From Allochromatium vinosum DSM 180 (lineage in GTDB: Bacteria; Pseudomonadota; Gammaproteobacteria; Chromatiales; Chromatiaceae): 64,000 nt of DNA. Below are positions 4,433 to 40,352 of this stretch, piece by piece. Made by a program: the position numbers and the translations under genes. Every line of letters begins with the position of its first letter. The first letter of the stretch is position 1. The DNA lies in the NCBI RefSeq assembly GCF_000025485.1, contig NC_013851.1:1837154-1901153 (forward strand), written 5' to 3'. The notes beneath the pieces were generated by a model. The model saw only the letters and a program-made list of their open reading frames with translations, had not been told where the DNA came from and searched no databases.

Positions 4433-5005
4433 ATGCGATACCGGATACGGACGGCCCTGGCCGTCAGTCTGCTCGTTTACTTCACCCCAGCCCAGCTCCA
4501 GGCGCAGGAGGACACGCCGATCCTGCCCGCGACCGATGCCTGTCTGAAGGGCGAAACCGAAACCACACCCTCGGCCGAATTCAGTCTGCTGGAGAACGGG
4601 GCCGTGGTCCGGCACCAGCGCACGACGCTCGAATGGCAGCGCTGCGCACTCGGTCAGCGCTGGGACGCCGAATCCAACGGCTGTGTCGGGCGTCCCGCCA
4701 GCCATCCCTGGACCAAGGCCATGCAGTTGGCGGGCAAGGCCGGGGGCGACTGGAGACTGCCGACCGGCGAGGAACTCCTGACCATTGTCGAAAAATGTCA
4801 CGACAGCCCCGCGATCAATCCGCAGGTGTTTCCGAACACCCCTTCGGGGCTGTACTGGTCGTCCTCGGTCGACACGGGCGGACTGGAGCGCGCCTGGTCG
4901 GTGAGTTTTTTCAGCGGCCAATACTTCCGGGCCGGCAAGTCGCAGAACGGGCGCGTGCGCCTGGTGCGCGGCACCCTGGGGCCACCGGGCGGCGCCGCGC
5001 CCTAG
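4433..5005 (+). CDS. Exported DUF1566 (Lcl-like) domain protein, 190 aa
   Basis: A signal peptide of about 25 residues (basic start, hydrophobic core, AQA-type cleavage before EDTP) directs export. The mature part holds one DUF1566 unit: VVRHQRTTLEWQRCALGQRW, a lysine- and glycine-rich stretch, GGDWRLPTGEELLTIV, then GLYWSSSVDTGG and a C-terminal RLVRG. Two Cys pairs may form disulfides. DUF1566 proteins are surface or periplasmic and often described as carbohydrate or adhesion related, without proven function. It converges tail to tail with the next gene, 7 bases apart. The ribosome site is weak. Confidence 0.8.
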   Translation: MRYRIRTALAVSLLVYFTPAQLQAQEDTPILPATDACLKGETETTPSAEFSLLENGAVVRHQRTTLEWQRCALGQRWDAESNGCVGRPASHPWTKAMQLAGKAGGDWRLPTGEELLTIVEKCHDSPAINPQVFPNTPSGLYWSSSVDTGGLERAWSVSFFSGQYFRAGKSQNGRVRLVRGTLGPPGGAAP

Positions 5006-5012
5006 ACCTCCG

Positions 5013-5348
5013 TCACCAGGGCCGGTATTCCAGACCTGGAATGGACTCGCGCTCGAAGACATCCGGCAGCGTCAGGATGCATTCTTTGAGCGCATCGAGT
5101 TCCATATAGCGTCCATAGGACGCCTTGGCGGCATCGACCGGCAGTTCCACCCAATAGCGGTGCTGGGACGGCTCATAGAGAATCTGCAGGATGGTCTCCT
5201 GCGTATCGATGAGACCGAGATAGTCGTCTTCGGTCTGAAGGCGCGGCAGGAGCTGCTCGCAGATGGCCTTGGCGCTCATCTCCACGGCACTGGCCGAGGA
5301 GATGGCTTCACCGGACCGATCGAAGAGATAGAAGACGCGATAGTGCAT
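5013..5348 (-). CDS. Hypothetical protein, 111 aa
   Basis: I do not recognise a family. The likely start is the ATG at 5348 (MHYRVFYLFDRSGEAISSAS); the upstream extension looks non-coding. The sequence is acidic and soluble, with an opening beta strand, a helix (AVEMSAKAICEQLL), a strand containing LGLIDTQETILQILYE, and a closing tyrosine- and proline-rich tail. There is no signal peptide or membrane segment. It converges with the DUF1566 gene and is divergent from the large membrane protein gene. Confidence 0.6.
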   Translation of the reverse strand: MHYRVFYLFDRSGEAISSASAVEMSAKAICEQLLPRLQTEDDYLGLIDTQETILQILYEPSQHRYWVELPVDAAKASYGRYMELDALKECILTLPDVFERESIPGLEYRPW

Positions 5349-5601
5349 AGTGGGCGGGCTCGCTATCCAAGGGAGGCCATGAATGCAATGAGACCCATCC
5401 GGAGTCCGACTCGCGCATGCTATGATGACGCGCAGCGCCACTGGAATCCGGGACGGATCCGTTCAAAACGATTGATTATACCCCCGATTCCCTGTCCGAA
5501 CAGCGCTTTGGCGCTATCGCTCACTCCATCGTCCGGCTGGCGCGACATCCGATTGCTCGTTGACTCCAAGATCCGACGCCTTTCCTAGAGTGCCTGGAGC
5601 C

Positions 5602-8600
5602 ATGTCCCGTCCGCCGCCGACAACCGCCGAGTCCGCCGCGAAGGAATTTCGTGCGAGCGTCTTCAAGCCGGCCGAAGGCATCTTTCTGTTTCATCCGCGT
5701 GCACTCGAGCGCCTGGTCGCCGAGCATCTCGAACCCTTTGGCTGCACGGGTTCCATTCCCAGCCTCGGCTATCACGTCATGTCGCGCGAGGATTTCCTGA
5801 GCGCGCTGGAATACGAGAATCCCGAGGCCCTGGTGGTCATTGAGGGACTCACTCTGCCTGAGTACGTGATCCTGCTGCCGATCCCGCTGGAGCTGCACCT
5901 GGAGCACGAGGATTTCATCGGCCTGCTGCGCGAGTATTGGGCACGTCGCTTCGAGGGCGAGATCGCGCGCGCCTGGCAGATGGCGCGTGATCGCGATCGC
6001 GACAGCATACGCTTCGGCGCGGCGCAATTGCGGGCGCTGATCGGCGAGATCGCCCTGGACGAGGTACGCGACGTCCTCACGCGCGATGGTGTGCTGCCAG
6101 CGGGGCTGGATGACACCTGGGTCTGCCGGGCCTTCGTCGCGCTGGTCATGCGGCTGCGTTATTTCAGTCCGGGTGCGCGCGGTCATTTCTTTCCGGCCAT
6201 CCACGACTGGCGCGCGCTCGATGCCTGGATCCGCGACAGCGGTCTGGATCTGCCGCCGCCGAGCCTGGATGGACCGCTCCCGGCACTGCTCGAAGCCTCC
6301 TGTCCGGACCCACGCTGCGGACATCCGACCCGACTGCCGTTGCTGCCGTCCGGATTTCCCTATGGCAAATCGGACGCGGATCTGGAGATCCACCGCTCGA
6401 CGCGGGCGCGTTCGGCCAAGCCGGATTCACCCGCGCTCGAGCCTGAGCCGGCCGTGGATGGGGGGGCGCTGCTCCAGCCTGGATTCCAGCCCCAGGGAAC
6501 GTTCATGGACCGGTGCGTGGCGGCATTCCATCCGGCGCCGCGACCCGGCCGACACGATTGGCTGGCGCGCCTTCAGGATCTGGCGCTGACACTGATCGCG
6601 ATCGTCCTGGACCCACTGCTTGCGCTGTCGAACCGATTCCGGCCCCGTGATGCGTCGGGTCCGGCACGCGGTCTGCGCCTAGCGCTCTCTCTGCCGCTGT
6701 TCACCCTGGCCATCCGGCGCGCCCGGCACGCCGATCGAGCCGAGCACTACGCCGCCGCCATCGCGCATCTGGCCGTGGCGCGGCGGCGTTTCCTGTCCAT
6801 GGGGGTCGTCGGCGCGGCCGAAGCGAGCCGGGTGCTGTGGCTCATCGACCAGCGCCGTCGCGGCGCCGAGGAATCGCTGACCAACCGGCTGGCGTTGCAG
6901 TGGAAGCTCAATCCCGGCATGAGTCGCGATCTGAAGGCGCTGATCCAGCGGCTCGGTGACGCGATCCTTGATCGCGAGCCGGTCGCGCTCGATCTGTTCC
7001 GGGATTTGGAGCGCGTGCTGATCGAGAGTCGCGCCACCTACTATCAGCTCAACCTCATCGCTTGGCTGCGCGCGCGCGGGCGTGTTCCGGCACGCCAGAT
7101 CCTGCCCTTTCAGGCCGATCTCAAGGCGCTGCGCCTGCTAGACACCGTCCAGAATCGACTGGAACGGCTCGGTTGGCCCACCGATGAGGCGGAGCGCTTC
7201 AACCGCCCGTTGAGCGCACTCTCCGGGCGCATCACCGAGCACCTGGAACACCAGCTCAAGCCGCACCTCAAGTGCGCCCTGGAAGAGGCCGGGTTCACCC
7301 CTCGCACCCACCGCGAGGAAGTCGCCTTCAACAAGCTGCTGCGTGAGCTGCTGGACGTCATCGAGCACCGGCGTCATCTCAAGTTCACCGACGTGCGCGA
7401 CATCGTGGCGCGCAATCTGCTGCGTCTGCCCGATCTCACGCTCGACGAATGGCGCTCCGGCGACCGGCTGGCGCAGTTCGATCGCTGTGCCGAACGCGCC
7501 CTGCCCGGTCTCTATCGCCCCGGCGAGATCTATATCAAGGGACTGCAACGACTCGGTGCACCACTCTTCGGCACCCCCCAGGGCCGGCTGGCGCTACGCC
7601 ATCTGATCCTGCCGGTCGGACTGGCCTTTCTCGGTCTCAAAACGCTCGATGTCCTCATCGGCATCCTGCCGACCCTGGAGGCGACCTTCAATCTGACCAG
7701 CCTCTGGCTGATCCTGGGACTCGGACTCCTGATCAATGCACTGGCCTACACCCGGGCCGGACGCATCGGCGTGCGGGTCTGTTGGCGCGTGGTCTGGTGG
7801 ACGCTGCGACTGCTGCTGTTCGATGGTCTCAGACGGTTTCTGCGCTGGCCCCCGGTCAAGCGCATCCTGGAGACCGAACTGGTGCGGGGACTGGACCGCA
7901 ATCTGCTCCGCCCCTTCCTGAGCGGAACGCTCCTGATGCTGCCGGTCATCGGGCTGGCCAGTCTCATCGAGGGCGGCCTGATCGACCTGAACCTCTCACT
8001 GGCTGCGCTGACGCTGATGCTGGGCGTGCTCATCCGCAATACACCCGGCGGACGGCGTCTGTTCGACGACCTCGTCAGTGCCGGCGGTCAGTTTCTGCGC
8101 CGAATCAACCAGACCCTGGTGATCGGGCTGATCCAGGAGCTGATGCTGTTCTTCAAGGAGGTCACGCGGCGCTTCCAGCAGGGGCTGCACCGGATCGAGG
8201 AGCGTCTGAGCCATCATCTCGGGGAGTCCTGGATGGCGCTGGCGCTCAAGGCGCTGCTGGTACCGGTGTGGCGCGTGCTGGAATGGCTGATCCAGTTCTA
8301 TGTCACGGTCCTGGTGGAACCGCAGATCAATCCGATCAAGCATTTTCCGCTCGTCACCATCGCTCACAAGCTGATGCTGCCCTTCCTGCCGCTGATCACC
8401 TCGATCATGGTCGAGATGCTGGCTCCGGTCCTGCCGAAATGGATCGCCATTCCCTTCGTCACACTCACCGTGCTGCTGCTGCCGGGGCTGGCGGGGTTTC
8501 TGGTCTGGGAGCTGAAGGAGAACTGGAAGATCTATGCCGCCAATCATTCGCGCACGACCAACGGGGTGGACGTCAAGCCGGGGCTCTATGCGGTGCGGCG

Positions 8601-34407: not shown

Positions 34408-35982
34408 TCAGGCTCGCACCACGCACACCCGGCGCCCGGACGGACTCGTGGTTTCGTCGACCCTGAGTCGCTCGGCCAACGGCGCCAGCCCCGGACGACG
34501 GTCGAAGATCACCAGCCAGCCGCGATCCACTCCCAAACCGGCGAGATAGGCATCCAGTTGCACCAACCCGTCAGGCAGCGGATCGGACGCGCTTGGGCGC
34601 CAGACCTTGATCTCGATCCCCAGCGTCACGGCCCGGTAGCGCAGACATAGATCCATGCGTCCGCGCCCGATGGCGTATTCGCGCTCCAGCGCGCCCTCGC
34701 CATTGACCACCCGTTGCAAGAAGGCCATGAGCACCAGATGCGGGGCGATCTCGTGATAGGGCGCGCTACCGAGCATGGCTTCGCCGTGCCGGCGCCAGAA
34801 GGCGAGGAAGGCGTCGAGCAGCGCCTCGGGATCGAGGTCGCCCGTCGGCGTGAGCCAACTCGGGCTGATCTGGGGCAGCGAGTCCTGGGGTCCGCCGGCG
34901 AGCGTGCGCGGCAGCACCTCGCGATAGATGGGATTGGCCACTTCCAGTCCGCTACCGCCGGTGCGACGCAGCAGACCCAGGTCGATCAGGTAATCACGTT
35001 CGTCGACCGGTATCTCGCCCAGTGCCGTCCCGGCCAGCATGGGTTCGATGATGCGGCGCACTCTGGGTTCGCGCAGCTTGTCGGCCAGTTGGTCGAGATG
35101 GGTGACGCGGCGCTGGATGAGGTTCTCCTTGGCCCGATCGATCAGGGCGATATCGATGGGGCGGGTTCGGTCGCGGCCTTCGGGTATATCGAAGCAGCTT
35201 TCATACGCGAGGGCGTTGACCAGCCAGGGCTGCCCCAGGGTCAGGGTCCAGATTCGATCCCTGGCCTCAGCGGTGAAGACCTGCCCCGTCTCTTTGGTGT
35301 GCTCGTCGAGCAACGCCATGACTTCATCGGACGAGAAATCTCCCAGACGCAGCGATTTGGCTTTGATGTTGAAGGCGCTGCCGCCGGTGATGGGTTCGGA
35401 CTCGGAACTGGCGTGAATGCGGTAGTCGCGCAGGTCGCGCACGCCGCAGAGAACCAGGGTGCTGGGGAAGGCTTGGGGGCGTTGCGGATAACCGGCCCGC
35501 AATTGGCGCAGCAGTGAGACCAGGGTATCGCCCACCAGGGCGTCGACCTCGTCGAGCAAGAGCGCCACTGGTTGCGGGGAGCGTTCGCACCATTGGTTGA
35601 GAAAGGCCCGCAGTGCGCGAGTCGGGGCGTTGAGCGCCAGCACCTCGCGCGCGAGGGCGTCGAGTCCCGAGGCGCCCGTCTGGCGCTGGGCTTCGTCGGC
35701 GATCGTTTGCACGATGTCGGCCATGGCCAGCGCGACGTCCTCGCGCGCGGCCTGGGCCGTTTCGAGATTGGCATAGACCGCCCGATAGCGCCCCTCGCGA
35801 TTGAGATGTTCCACCAGCGCCAGCAGACAGGAGGTCTTGCCCGTCTGGCGCGGGGCATGGAGCAGAAAGTATTTCTTCTGCTCGATCAGGGTCAGCACCT
35901 CGTCCAGATCCCAGCGTTGCAGCGGAGGCAGGAGGTAATGATCCTCGGGCCGGACCGGACCCTCGGTATTGAAAAAACGCAT
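34408..35982 (-). CDS. AAA-type P-loop ATPase with C-terminal PD-(D/E)XK-like domain, 524 aa
   Basis: Walker A is HAPRQTGKTS at residues 42-51, and a Walker B-like VALLLDEVDALVG lies near 135-145. A winged-helix-like region follows (about 270-330, with IDLGLLRRTGG). The C-terminus has EREYAIGRGRMDLCL and GIEIKVW (near 450), the pattern of the nuclease-like domain linked to AAA-like ATPases (PDDEXK_9 type, from memory). Such proteins are common and uncharacterised in purple sulfur bacteria and are often suspected in defence or DNA transactions. It overlaps no gene and directly precedes the CrtO-like gene. Confidence 0.8.
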   Translation of the reverse strand: MRFFNTEGPVRPEDHYLLPPLQRWDLDEVLTLIEQKKYFLLHAPRQTGKTSCLLALVEHLNREGRYRAVYANLETAQAAREDVALAMADIVQTIADEAQRQTGASGLDALAREVLALNAPTRALRAFLNQWCERSPQPVALLLDEVDALVGDTLVSLLRQLRAGYPQRPQAFPSTLVLCGVRDLRDYRIHASSESEPITGGSAFNIKAKSLRLGDFSSDEVMALLDEHTKETGQVFTAEARDRIWTLTLGQPWLVNALAYESCFDIPEGRDRTRPIDIALIDRAKENLIQRRVTHLDQLADKLREPRVRRIIEPMLAGTALGEIPVDERDYLIDLGLLRRTGGSGLEVANPIYREVLPRTLAGGPQDSLPQISPSWLTPTGDLDPEALLDAFLAFWRRHGEAMLGSAPYHEIAPHLVLMAFLQRVVNGEGALEREYAIGRGRMDLCLRYRAVTLGIEIKVWRPSASDPLPDGLVQLDAYLAGLGVDRGWLVIFDRRPGLAPLAERLRVDETTSPSGRRVCVVRA

Positions 35983-36073: not shown

Positions 36074-36323
36074 TCAGGCGGCCTGTTCCGAATTGTGAGT
36101 ATTCTGTATCAGAATTGTTGGGTTGCTTGTTATTGGAGGCACTGGGCGATTTGTTTCTGATAAAACCGCTATATGCTCTGCCATAACCGAATTAGCCATG
36201 ATAAATGGCGCCCTCGACCGAGTGTGCCACACCCGAGAAACCAGGTAAGTCAAGCGAATAAAAGGTAAAAAAGTCAGGCTCATCTGTTGCTTCGATAACG
36301 AGAGAATAGGGCAAATCGATCAT
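36074..36323 (-). pseudogene. hicB: HicB-type antitoxin gene broken by a frameshift
   Basis: From ATG 36323 the first frame reads 43 residues with HicB features (MIDLPYSLVIEATDEPDFF, LDLPGFSGVAHSVEGA) and stops at a TAA at 36192-36194. The rest of a typical HicB (MAEHIAVLSETNRPVPP, then NPTILIQN) continues in another frame to 36074. Dropping one base near 36198-36205 restores one continuous reading of about 82 residues. The break is therefore real decay, a sequencing error or, less likely, recoding. It starts ten bases after the hicA stop. Confidence 0.75.
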
Positions 36324-36332
36324 CAGATCACC

Positions 36333-36521
36333 TTATTGATCTATACCAGCCGTTTTCAGGAGCGAACGACAAGTACCAGTAGGGACTTCTTTTGCATCAT
36401 AAAAATCAACACGAACGACGTTGTCCCAGCCGACCCTTGTGTAGTATCGGATTGATCTCTTCTGCTTGACGAGATGGAATCCGTTTTTCTCCAAGAGTCG
36501 AACCAGTTCGCTGAATTTCAT
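36333..36521 (-). CDS. hicA: HicA-family toxin, 62 aa, variant lacking the catalytic His
   Basis: Start at ATG 36521 gives MKFSELVRLLEKNGFHLVKQ, a small dsRBD-fold HicA. HicA toxins cleave mRNA; the usual active-site His lies in a GSH motif, but here the loop is KRSIRYY with Ile at position 24. I recall a HicA subgroup with SIRYY, so the change may be natural, and activity is uncertain. VPTGTCRSLLKTAGI at the end is typical. The gene lies 30 bases past the attC-like site, directly followed by the broken hicB, the usual hicAB order. Confidence 0.82.
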   Translation of the reverse strand: MKFSELVRLLEKNGFHLVKQKRSIRYYTRVGWDNVVRVDFYDAKEVPTGTCRSLLKTAGIDQ

Positions 36522-36550
36522 GTTCTCAGTCAATCTGGAGAGCATTGCAT

Positions 36551-36621
36551 GCCTGACGATGAGCTTACTGGCGGCAATAGAGCACTGCGGAATTGCCTTC
36601 CGGTGCAGCGCCTTGTTATGT
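36551..36621 (-). other. attC-like recombination site of an integron gene cassette
   Basis: These 71 bases fold like attC. Outer 7-base boxes GCCTGAC (36551-36557) and GTTATGT (36615-36621) pair imperfectly. Unpaired spacers of 5 bases lie on each side (36558-36562 and 36610-36614). The next helix is GCTT with GCAGC, carrying one bulged base at 36606. ACTGG then pairs with CCGGT and GGCAAT with ATTGCC around a terminal loop. The bulge lies on the arm that makes the minus strand the conventional top strand, the same direction as the endonuclease gene ending at 36631. No consensus search could be run. Confidence 0.72.
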
Positions 36622-36630
36622 GGTTCTTGC

Positions 36631-37527
36631 TTAGACGAAAGACCCCCGCTCAAGTGCAGCGTTTGGATCATACCAAACCGCATTTACGAAGGCGTCAATG
36701 TTTTCGACGAATCGCAGAATTACAGCCGGGTCGATTGGATGAGCATCCCTTTGACGACGCACAGCATCGTAGTCGTTCCGAAGATTAAACGGCAATCTCT
36801 TTGCGTGGCGGAGAAGATAAACGTTATCAACAGCAGTTAATCGGCAATCTTCAGGTGACATGTCCAAATACTCGTTCAGGACAAAATACTGCGCATGTGG
36901 GCAACCCTGCTTCAACCGTGCGGCAGTCCCGGAAGCCTCCTGAAACATGGTCTTGTCGAGGTTAACCTTGCATTCAGCGGCAAGAACAGCGAGGGGAATA
37001 ACTCCAGATGCCGTCGTAGAATCCGGGAAATCGTGGTCTGGGGAGAATTTGTAGTAAATCTCTTTGCCGAGAATAAAATCCTGATCCTTGACCTTGACCA
37101 CGACGCTTGGCTTTTCGCCAAGCGCAGCAACGCCAGAAGGATTAAAGGAAAGCGACATAAATGCGCGAGTTGGCCCTACATTTAATTCTAAATTCTCGGG
37201 CAGACCGGGAATAATCGCCGGATGGATTAGATGAATAAGAAACTCTTCAAGAACTGAGTTATCGAGCTTGAGCTGACCCTTTTGCCTTTTGATAAAGGCC
37301 GAGCCATTCTGCGCGATCAGCTCTACTTCGAGTCGATCTTTATATTCATTCAGATGCGCCGTCATCTCGCGTACACGCTCAGCGCCTTCGGATGTGAGCG
37401 CAGTAGTATTGGCAATCCACTGCTCGTAGTACTGAATTGCTTGCTGCAATAAATTGCGATCTTCTTGGCCGCATTTTGGATTACGAATTGCTGCCTCGAG
37501 CTTCTCTTTATGAGGTGTGTTTGCCAT
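36631..37527 (-). CDS. Bpu10I-like type II restriction endonuclease, 298 aa
   Basis: From memory the protein resembles the Bpu10I/BbvCI restriction endonuclease family, which cuts CCTNAGC-like sites. The likely PD-(D/E)XK core is AAECKVNLDKTMFQEA, with E185 and K187 and an acidic cluster (FSPDHDFPDS) about 20 residues before. The N-terminus is helical and charged (NPKCGQEDRNLLQQA). No signal peptide is present. It starts three bases after the methyltransferase stop, so the two are translationally close. Codon use is visibly AT-richer than the neighbours. Specificity is unknown. Confidence 0.72.
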   Translation of the reverse strand: MANTPHKEKLEAAIRNPKCGQEDRNLLQQAIQYYEQWIANTTALTSEGAERVREMTAHLNEYKDRLEVELIAQNGSAFIKRQKGQLKLDNSVLEEFLIHLIHPAIIPGLPENLELNVGPTRAFMSLSFNPSGVAALGEKPSVVVKVKDQDFILGKEIYYKFSPDHDFPDSTTASGVIPLAVLAAECKVNLDKTMFQEASGTAARLKQGCPHAQYFVLNEYLDMSPEDCRLTAVDNVYLLRHAKRLPFNLRNDYDAVRRQRDAHPIDPAVILRFVENIDAFVNAVWYDPNAALERGSFV

Positions 37528-37530
37528 AAT

Positions 37531-38784
37531 TTAAAGTATTGGTGTTCTGTCTTGGATAGGGGATTCTGGAATCTGGTCAAGGTTGTTGATGGCATCTTCG
37601 ATATCCCTGACAACCTTCTTTTCTGCCACTCTCAGCCCTTCTTGTAATGCATCACCAGCTATAGTCCGCGCAACATTTGAGGCAGTTGCTGTTTCTGCTT
37701 TTCGGAAAACAAGAATATCTTCGACGATGTTGGTACCGAATCGATTAGTAAAGGAGCGCTCATGCTGGGACTCCAAGGCGAATAGACCGCCTTCTGTTGC
37801 GATACGGTACACAAGCTCGCCATTCTTAAATGGAACGCCCCGGACATTTGACTCTCTCCCTAGAATCATAATAGCGTAGCCACTATTTTTTAAAATTTGA
37901 TTGAAGGCAGTGAGGGCGCGCTCCATTTCAAGGCAATACTGAACTACGGTTCTGAACCGATTGCCCCGATTTTTTCGATTTGAACCTATCTCGCACCTCG
38001 CCACACTCAGAATATCAAATCCTAATAACTCAACAATTGCGCGATGGTTCTGATGATAGTTGAATACATTAATGTAAGGCGGACTTGTCAGGAGAAAATC
38101 GCACTCTACAGGAACAACCTTCGCTGCGAGTCGAGCGTCACAGAGAAATATCTGCGGAGATACTGCAAGACGAGGAAGACCAACAAGTTGCTCGGTGAGT
38201 TTCTGGTGGCTCCTGCGGATCACTGGAAGTAGATCGCCACAGCGAGTTGACTCTGCTTCAAAAAGCAAGAGCGTCGAAAGAAGGGTTTGCTTCTTCGTCT
38301 CGCTTTTATCTAGCAAGGTTCTCGCGAAATTCAAGAGATTAGCTGCCTTTGCTCTGTAATCCGAGGACTCATTCCATAGCGGCAGACCACCAAACGTCCG
38401 AACAGTCGAGTTGATGTGAGATTCAATTTGCCGGGAAAGTTCCAAACGCTGACGAAGATCCAATAAAGCTAATGTAGAAAACTTTGCCATTGCGTATGCA
38501 GCAGGATTCAACTCAATTCCGAAGCCAGCGATATTGCGCGAAGCCGCTTCCAGCAAAACAGTTCCTGAACCGCAAAAAGGATCAATTACCGCAGAAGCGT
38601 TTGTAGCAAACTCCTCCAAGATGTAATCAACGAACTGTGGCGTAAATTGGCCTCGCCAGTTGAAAATATTTGATCTGCTTTTGTTCGTGACGTCCAAGCG
38701 CTCTTGAAGAAGCTCTCTCATGGGGAAAATTTCGTGAAAATCATAAAATCGAGAGGGTCGTTTTACGGGGTCATTGTTTCGCAT
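37531..38784 (-). CDS. DNA adenine-N6/cytosine-N4 methyltransferase, 417 aa
   Basis: The SAM-binding motif DPFCGSGTVLLEA is at residues 68-80 and the catalytic TSPPY at 233-237, followed by INVFNYHQNHR. The order (SAM motif first, catalytic motif later) and NWRGQFTPQFV before it mark an amino-methyltransferase. SPPY is more usual in N4-cytosine enzymes. It should protect host DNA from the following endonuclease. The ATG lies in GCGTTATGC, which resembles an integron core site. Base composition is far lower in GC than the flanking genes, suggesting transfer. Confidence 0.85.
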   Translation of the reverse strand: MRNNDPVKRPSRFYDFHEIFPMRELLQERLDVTNKSRSNIFNWRGQFTPQFVDYILEEFATNASAVIDPFCGSGTVLLEAASRNIAGFGIELNPAAYAMAKFSTLALLDLRQRLELSRQIESHINSTVRTFGGLPLWNESSDYRAKAANLLNFARTLLDKSETKKQTLLSTLLLFEAESTRCGDLLPVIRRSHQKLTEQLVGLPRLAVSPQIFLCDARLAAKVVPVECDFLLTSPPYINVFNYHQNHRAIVELLGFDILSVARCEIGSNRKNRGNRFRTVVQYCLEMERALTAFNQILKNSGYAIMILGRESNVRGVPFKNGELVYRIATEGGLFALESQHERSFTNRFGTNIVEDILVFRKAETATASNVARTIAGDALQEGLRVAEKKVVRDIEDAINNLDQIPESPIQDRTPIL

Positions 38785-38803
38785 AACGCTTGAGTTAGTG
38801 CTC
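38785..38803 (-). other. Possible integron core-site remnants at the ATPase/methyltransferase junction
   Basis: Read on the minus strand, GAGCACTAAC (38794-38803) is followed by TCAAGCGTTATGC into the methyltransferase start. GAGCACTAAC is the exact complement of GTTAGTGCTC upstream of the ATPase gene (plus-strand GAGCACTAAC at 40269-40278). TAACTCAAGCGTTA resembles the right half of the well-known aadA cassette attC. The central hairpin of an attC is missing here. Confidence 0.45.
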
Positions 38804-38804
38804 G

Positions 38805-40244
38805 CTAGCGGTCTGCCAGCCCGTAGTTGATTGCGTACTCCTTCAGTTTTTCCAGAACGTAGATTGCTATCTTATTCTGATTAGATTCACTCGTTGCTTT
38901 GTGATGAAACTCTAACGCGATCAGCCCACGGTCGCTCGTATACGTTACGTCGGTCTGCAGGCCCTTTACTAGGGTCTTCTCATAATCCAGTTGCGGCACT
39001 TCTGCTCCTGCATCTAAAGCCAGCGACATCACGGCTTGATTTATGCTTCTGTGGCGACTTTCTGAGACTGCTTGGATCTTGTCGAAAGATTGATACGTTT
39101 CTGGACTCACGCTAGAGCCGTACTCTCGGTTATCCAAAGGCTCATTACGTAGAAATTTGTAGAGTTCTGATGAGGCCATAACTCGCTTTGCATTGCCTTT
39201 GTCAGCTCGCACCCCAGAAGTTAGATCTTTAAGATCTTTTTTACCGTGCTGTGCTATGGCATGAACAAGACAGCTGGCGGAGATTGACGCGAGCTGCGCA
39301 TTAAAGAGCGCAATCACATGAGGCAAAGCGGACTTCAGGTGGGTAGATCTGTTCTGCCACCACTCCGAAACATTTGATCTTCTTGTGTACATAAGTAGAC
39401 GTGATGCTTCTATGTAGTAGCTGTCCGCTCTGCGTAGAGAGCGGCAGACTTCTCGAATATTCGGCGCCCCCGATGAGATGGTAATTACAAGCATAGGAAA
39501 TGTGATACCGAACGACCCTACATCAAAGCGCTCCGTGATAAGAGACTGAAGCGCGTCAAGAAAAGCTCCTATGCTATCGTTCTTTGCAATCAACGCTTCT
39601 ACTTCTGTGGTTGATATTGCTGCATCATCTAAGCGCCAATTTGCCACTTGAAGTATTTTTTCGAGTACAGCCGAAAACTGCCCCTTATCTGGCCCCTTTA
39701 GTGCATGTATTGGGGAAATGCCGAAAGCGCTGTTTCCGCCGACTTTTTTCAGGATCCCGATGAGCCTTTCTGCGAACTCTGGATCAGTAACCGGCCAAAG
39801 AATTACCAGATCGGGGCGTTGCCGTAGAACCCCATTGAGCGATCCCAAGAACGTTTGGTATTGTGCTTGGTCGAAGTACGGTGATTCTCTACCGTCGAAG
39901 TTAAGGATGGTAATTTTTCCTTTTCGGGGAATCTTAGCGATATACCCAGGAATTTGTTCTACGGGAAGTTCGTGCTGCTCCGGAATTCGTTCCACATGAT
40001 CGACTTTGTCTGCAAGAAATATTTCTAGACCGTGAACGAAAGTACTTTTCCCGGAACCACTAGCCGCGCTGATGAAGGCAATCTTGCCCTGTTGTGCGCT
40101 CTCCGCCGAAGAAATCAGTCTCTTAGCAAATTCGATATCCGACGCTGACTCTATAAACGTGGCCTTGGCCTTCTGGCCAAACACGTTTGTCAGCGGTTCG
40201 TACCTTGTGGGCAACGAGCGAATCGAAAGTGTAGCTGAGGACAT
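38805..40244 (-). CDS. P-loop ATPase of the restriction-modification island, 479 aa
   Basis: I do not recognise a named family. Walker A is SAASGSGKST (residues 59-68). A Walker B-like ILNFDGRE lies near 117. The middle is helical with many Ser and Arg residues. The C-terminal part has VTYTSDRGLIALEFHHK, which might be a degenerate nuclease or DNA-binding fold (weak). The gene precedes the methyltransferase by 20 bases and is flanked by 10-base inverted repeats. An accessory motor or regulator of the R-M pair is plausible, as is a separate defence gene; neither is shown. AT-rich like the island. Confidence 0.7.
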   Translation of the reverse strand: MSSATLSIRSLPTRYEPLTNVFGQKAKATFIESASDIEFAKRLISSAESAQQGKIAFISAASGSGKSTFVHGLEIFLADKVDHVERIPEQHELPVEQIPGYIAKIPRKGKITILNFDGRESPYFDQAQYQTFLGSLNGVLRQRPDLVILWPVTDPEFAERLIGILKKVGGNSAFGISPIHALKGPDKGQFSAVLEKILQVANWRLDDAAISTTEVEALIAKNDSIGAFLDALQSLITERFDVGSFGITFPMLVITISSGAPNIREVCRSLRRADSYYIEASRLLMYTRRSNVSEWWQNRSTHLKSALPHVIALFNAQLASISASCLVHAIAQHGKKDLKDLTSGVRADKGNAKRVMASSELYKFLRNEPLDNREYGSSVSPETYQSFDKIQAVSESRHRSINQAVMSLALDAGAEVPQLDYEKTLVKGLQTDVTYTSDRGLIALEFHHKATSESNQNKIAIYVLEKLKEYAINYGLADR

Positions 40245-40268
40245 GAAATCGCCTATTTATTTGGATTT

Positions 40269-40278
40269 GAGCACTAAC
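40269..40278. repeat. 10-base inverted repeat (GAGCACTAAC) upstream of the ATPase gene
   Basis: GAGCACTAAC at 40269-40278 is the reverse complement of GTTAGTGCTC at 38794-38803. The two flank the ATPase gene. On the minus strand this copy reads GTTAGTGC, a GTTRRRY-like core that would mark the cassette's 5' boundary. Confidence 0.45.
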
Positions 40279-40301
40279 AGTTAATTAGACAGAAAGTCGG
40301 T

Positions 40302-40336
40302 CTGGCGAGCTAGACAGATTCCATCTAGCTCGCCAG
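40302..40336. repeat. Perfect 12-base inverted repeat between serS and the island
   Basis: CTGGCGAGCTAG (40302-40313) and CTAGCTCGCCAG (40325-40336) are perfect complements with an 11-base loop. It lies between the serS stop and the ATPase gene. A U run is missing, so it is a doubtful terminator for serS; an operator or remnant of an insertion site is equally possible. Confidence 0.6.
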
Positions 40337-40352
40337 GTATTCACAATCCAGG

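Follow-up and report, generated by a model that had tools for sequence, protein, structure and literature searches.

Evidence for a relic chromosomal integron with a Bpu10I-type restriction-modification cassette downstream of serS in Allochromatium vinosum DSM 180

Among the closest described systems is the sedentary chromosomal integron of Xanthomonas located downstream of ilvD, which occupies a fixed position, was acquired in an ancestor, has repeatedly suffered truncation or deletion of its integrase gene intI, and carries lineage-specific cassettes in arrays that became frozen after the intI loss (PMC12444791). The Allochromatium vinosum locus analyzed here resembles it in these respects and has apparently followed the same course of intI loss and array freezing; however, it is located downstream of serS, its intI is wholly gone, its attI is kept, and its array is very short. 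Another related type is represented by CALINs, clusters of attC sites lacking an integrase, which are proposed to be degraded integrons (PMC9024848). The window, i.e., the whole stretch of 64,000 nucleotides that was analyzed, likewise contains attC-bearing cassettes that have no intI in their vicinity; however, it possesses a single recognizable attC and a 23-nt remnant of another one, falling below the default CALIN threshold (a minimum of two attC sites in the absence of intI), and its attI is still present. With their thresholds left at default, integron annotation tools would probably overlook it. The locus is of a known kind, and its interesting parts are the state in which attI and cassettes persist together and the recurrent cassette of the Bpu10I type.

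The array is contained in an insert of 4.2 kb with a GC content of about 47%, as compared to about 65% (62–70%) outside, which is flanked by serS and by a gene shared with a sister species (genome G003). All array genes are encoded on the minus strand, where the order of elements is as follows: the attI remnant, the ATPase cassette, the 23-nt attC remnant, the cassette with the DNA methyltransferase (MTase) and restriction endonuclease (REase) genes, its attC site, hicA, and a broken hicB (Table 1). A search of the window against Rfam revealed two tRNAs only, and a promoter scan of the array produced fewer matches than were found in shuffled sequences. The right flank contains an AAA-ATPase-like gene (34408–35982) that the sister species also has; a short fragment from its beginning occurs in G005 as well.

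Table 1. Features of the serS-downstream locus (window positions).
Feature	Position	Strand	Evidence
Segment that differs from the sister species G003 except in attC (the low-GC insert)	36098..40340		flanks 97% identical to G003, interior different; GC 45–52%
attI-like remnant	40274..40329	-	crossover core G^TTAG (40278) at its end
ATPase ORF, 479 aa, cassette 1	38805..40244	-	Walker-A-like ASGSGKST
Remnant of the cassette 1 attC: GAGCACTAAC TCAAGC GTTATGC (R'' box, 3' spacer, R' box)	38781..38803	-	23 nt, sequence
DNA methyltransferase (N6_N4_Mtase), cassette 2	37531..38784	-	PF01555 E 1e-9; PADLOC MTase_II E 2e-20
Restriction endonuclease, Bpu10I/BbvCI family, cassette 2	36631..37527	-	PF09549 302.6 bits, E 2e-90; BbvCI subunit 2 E 5e-31
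attC of the MTase-REase cassette, 3' arm decayed	36551..36621	-	R2 61.9 bits; 75–88% identity to attC family; R1 negative
hicA toxin gene, cassette 3 (last, truncated)	36333..36521	-	PF07927 46 bits (gathering 27)
hicB-like antitoxin remnant, frameshifted	36074..36323	-	two ORF pieces

The putative attI remnant, which is absent from the initial annotation, is by homology the strongest single piece of evidence on the nature of the locus. Over 56 bp, it shares 91% identity (E 3e-16) with the sequence separating intI from the first cassette in G001, a genome of the same genus, and its identity to the corresponding place in G005 and G011 is 86–87%. Each of these three homologs adjoins intI or an intI remnant; against TIGR02249, the integrase of G001 reaches 471 bits. 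The homology stops at the crossover core GTTAG, which is the exact start point of the ATPase cassette; thus, the remnant is located immediately next to the first cassette. This element marks the locus as that of an integron, beyond a set of loose cassettes.

The second site-specific element is the attC of the MTase-REase cassette. The initial annotation had described an attC-like stretch of 71 bases with a minus-strand orientation and an outer box ACATAAC, all of which are present, the box occupying positions 36621–36615. The hand-made fold of this stretch gains nothing from energetics, since its folding energy is no better than that of shuffled sequences (z from -0.5 to 0.2), so the fold alone is not evidence and minimum-energy folding was dropped as an argument; the site itself stands as an attC by homology, on which its significance is based. 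A blastn search detected, with 86% identity over 64 bp (E 1e-10), an attC-like sequence of a Geoalkalibacter plasmid that begins 3 bp past a methyltransferase gene, and relatives of the site were identified in 16 other genomes among the 369 genomes of the class; its identity to this attC family is 75–88%. We used two covariance models on the window and on individual loci: R1, a general attC model based on 46 attC sites whose arrays adjoin intI genes and that were picked regardless of their similarity to the window site, and R2, a model of the attC family built from 17 relatives of the window site, with the window left out. The R2 covariation score was reached by none of 500 shuffles. R2 identifies the window site at 36551–36623 with E 1.6e-16, the runner-up place in 64 kb scoring 14.6 bits; since the sequences used for R2 were BLAST relatives of the site, this E-value measures family membership and does not by itself indicate attC function. 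The same model also picks up many of the attC sites found in arrays linked to intI, almost always in the array orientation. Because the R2 relatives were chosen by similarity, the results of R1 on them matter: R1 recognizes 13 family members as attC and scores the Geoalkalibacter site at 32 bits and a site in G003 at 20.9 bits. In G158, one family member and the start of an integron integrase gene are 669 bp apart.

In the window, R1 detects nothing in the array, including the attC itself, and thus the covariance check proposed in the initial annotation failed for the general model, though this model recognizes relatives of the site. R1 misses it because the 3' arm is decayed: the R' box reads GTCAGGC in place of GTTRRRY, the 3' spacer is shorter by one base, and the L' box is altered. 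Judged by its sequence relatives (R2, and blastn at E 1e-10 or better), the site is an attC by descent that has decayed. Other attC-like relatives, found in two genomes of one other genus (L202, L204, and L213), also deviate from GTTRRRY at their 3' ends (GTCAGGC, ATCAGGC and similar) and are negative with R1; these are possibly attC relics too.

The absence of an integrase gene from the window, noted initially, extends to the genome: no integrase scores above the TIGR02249 cut-off, a degraded copy elsewhere is the only one present, and no intI fragment is left at the serS locus itself. In the sister species G003, an N-terminal intI fragment (E 1e-60) adjoins serS in the expected orientation and is followed by other genes, an attC 81% identical to that of the window, and a hicBA pair running into the same right flank. 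This locus therefore combines an integrase remnant with turnover of cassettes at the same place. The distance from serS to a gene encoding a 164-aa protein is about 60 bp in G002 and G006, which corresponds to an empty site, and the ATPase and REase genes are absent from the 37 relatives searched. In G005, G007, and G001, the search for attC at the serS locus was negative. G005 harbors a different large insert without attC (18.5 kb, L140) between serS and the 164-aa gene, and the serS-downstream site may be a wider insertion hotspot.

The degraded intI copy, which is of the G001 type, belongs to a second relic integron located 1.3 Mb away in the same genome (C1:539.75–540.45 kb). The respective locus (L121 9748–10579, G000:C1 about 539.75–540.6 kb) comprises the degraded intI, an attC-like site (R2 22.3 bits), and then a glycine-rich repeat coding sequence; this intI and the attC-like sites accompanying it together span about C1:539.75–541.1 kb. 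L121 matches the G001 integron until 39 bp short of the start of the window attI match, and the two pieces are thus nearly complementary, as would be expected if attI and the cassettes had moved together from the 540-kb integron in a rearrangement that split intI from attI, instead of the cassettes being acquired singly at serS. However, the intI fragment at serS in G003, lying in the right orientation, implies that an integron was already there, and L121 retains its own attC-like sites; we consider such a transfer unlikely.

The borders of the cassettes agree with a relic integron at serS, and two of the initial observations on them are borne out. First, the ATPase gene is flanked by exactly complementary boxes, GTTAGTGCTC at 40278–40269 and GAGCACTAAC at 38803–38794, each of which occurs only once on the window's minus strand; within 70 nt of similar composition, such a complement would arise by chance with a probability of 3.5e-5 for the 10-nt match and 0.0024 for the 7-nt core. 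The interior of the cassette 1 attC has presumably been deleted, leaving the 23-nt remnant. Second, the MTase start codon is located inside GTTATGC (38787–38781), a GTTRRRY-like cassette start that is complementary at 6 of 7 positions to ACATAAC, the R'' box of its own attC. Of the two or three cassettes that had been proposed, three are supported: the first contains the ATPase, the second the MTase with the REase, and the last one, which is truncated, hicA with the broken hicB. The stop codon of the ATPase gene is separated from the MTase start by only 20 bp, with no full attC between them, which would fit a single cassette encoding a three-gene defense system, the boxes between ATPase and MTase being a product of chance. 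However, of the 80 loci in other species that encode an MTase relative, 75 have an adjacent REase relative and none has the ATPase, suggesting that the MTase and REase form one unit from which the ATPase is separate; in addition, both the improbability of the exact 10-nt complement and the occurrence of a 10-nt boundary complement in an attC-flanked cassette from Desmonostoc (L073) argue against chance. A single three-gene cassette is somewhat less probable still than the transfer from the 540-kb integron.

The ATPase has no match in Pfam, PADLOC or NCBIfam at E 0.01, and its relatives were found neither in viral contigs nor among PDB sequences. Homologs sharing 47% identity over the full length are encoded on two Nostoc plasmids, where they are located near DUF2188 and KTSC genes (L217 and L218, about 4989–7525); in L218, the homolog is followed by a gene that by eye resembles a RelA/SpoT-type synthetase. 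These plasmids were rejected as a second integron, as the neighboring recombinase scores far under the IntI cut-off and R1 detects no attC there. A single-sequence structure prediction for the ATPase was discarded (mean pLDDT 34).

The second cassette combines a Bpu10I endonuclease domain with an adjacent MTase, as in type II restriction-modification (R-M) systems of the Bpu10I/BbvCI family, and its REase matches both PF09549 and BbvCI subunits. Bpu10I and BbvCI are heterodimers with asymmetric cut sites, whereas the window encodes a single REase gene. No REase relatives were found in plasmids. The order of ATPase, R-M, and HicA genes was not encountered anywhere else and is thus not conserved in relatives without attC-like junctions; several relatives of the MTase-REase pair do carry attC junctions. 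In a betaproteobacterial bin (L038, 1626–6504), the pair has attC sites on both sides, with four additional ones behind it; in L073 (5623–8284), the pair is flanked by attC, and its 10-nt boundary complement is of the kind found around the window ATPase; in a PVC-group bin (L093, 2736–7644), a full IntI (384 bits) is encoded beside a fused MTase-REase reading frame that is followed by attC. The attC site follows the REase gene by about 50 bp in L043 (8121–8192) and by about 36 bp in L086 (7318–7404). Overall, the R1 matches with E up to 0.2 in the loci of MTase relatives are all on the MTase strand (14 of 14). In many other genomes, the pair occurs without attC nearby. Tentatively, and with rather more doubt than confidence, we suggest that the Bpu10I-type MTase-REase pair could constitute a recurrent lineage of integron cassettes that crossed phylum borders (with betaproteobacterial, cyanobacterial, PVC-group, and deltaproteobacterial loci as well as this genus), and that such cassettes might slow the loss of arrays, so that a block of attI and R-M genes outlasts the integrase. 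Integrons carrying R-M genes are known from earlier reports (PMC4176335). A literature search for Bpu10I with integron returned only a review mentioning each word once.

The toxin-antitoxin part of the array has not remained intact. The hicA frame is intact and its product belongs to the HicA family, as in HicAB modules; however, the hicB-like frame is broken. Its two pieces joined with X reach 14.3 bits against PF15919 (E 0.045), under the cut-off, and the final codons of this remnant are located inside the flank shared with G003.

Taken together, these data make it very probable that the locus is a relic of a chromosomal integron downstream of serS, which was already carried by the common ancestor of this and the sister species and has lost intI. 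This reading is based on (i) the attI homology beside three intI genes; (ii) the attC homology to a covarying family that R1 recognizes and that has a member close to intI in G158; (iii) the intI fragment, other cassettes, and related attC at the same place in G003; (iv) the empty sites in G002 and G006 and the absence of the ATPase and REase from the 37 relatives; and (v) the lack of a full intI in the genome, the GC step, and the occurrence of the same R-M pair as a cassette elsewhere. Counted against it are the R1-negative attC, its shuffle-like fold, the mere remnant of the ATPase attC, the missing local intI fragment, and the construction of R2 from BLAST relatives. The notion of a defense island, in which the R-M, HicA, and ATPase genes arrived via another mobile element and the attC resemblance is incidental, could draw on the many genomes that have the MTase-REase pair without attC, but it is already contradicted by the attI homolog positioned exactly at the ATPase end and the integrase remnant at the same locus in G003, as well as by the attC homology at E 1e-10 or better and the attC-flanked R-M copies elsewhere, and has next to no likelihood.

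For the relic integron, the order of events that we infer is as follows. While intI was present, circular cassettes would have been inserted at attI by attI x attC recombination, which lined up the ATPase gene, the MTase-REase pair, and the hicAB module in one orientation. A later deletion would have removed intI as far as the border of attI; the attC of cassette 1 would have been stripped of its interior, decay would have affected the 3' arm of the second attC, and a truncation inside hicB would have cut off the far end. The remainder would now be a fixed block, immobile unless an integrase is supplied in trans. The frames of the R-M pair and the ATPase are intact, and these genes may still serve in defense.

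The locus provides a clear case of the decay of a chromosomal integron into stray cassettes, with attI and cassettes retained without intI, an intI stub in the sister species, and the empty site in two other members of the genus. Moreover, unrelated phyla have repeatedly packaged one type II R-M pair as an integron cassette, a finding of relevance to the ways in which defense genes travel.
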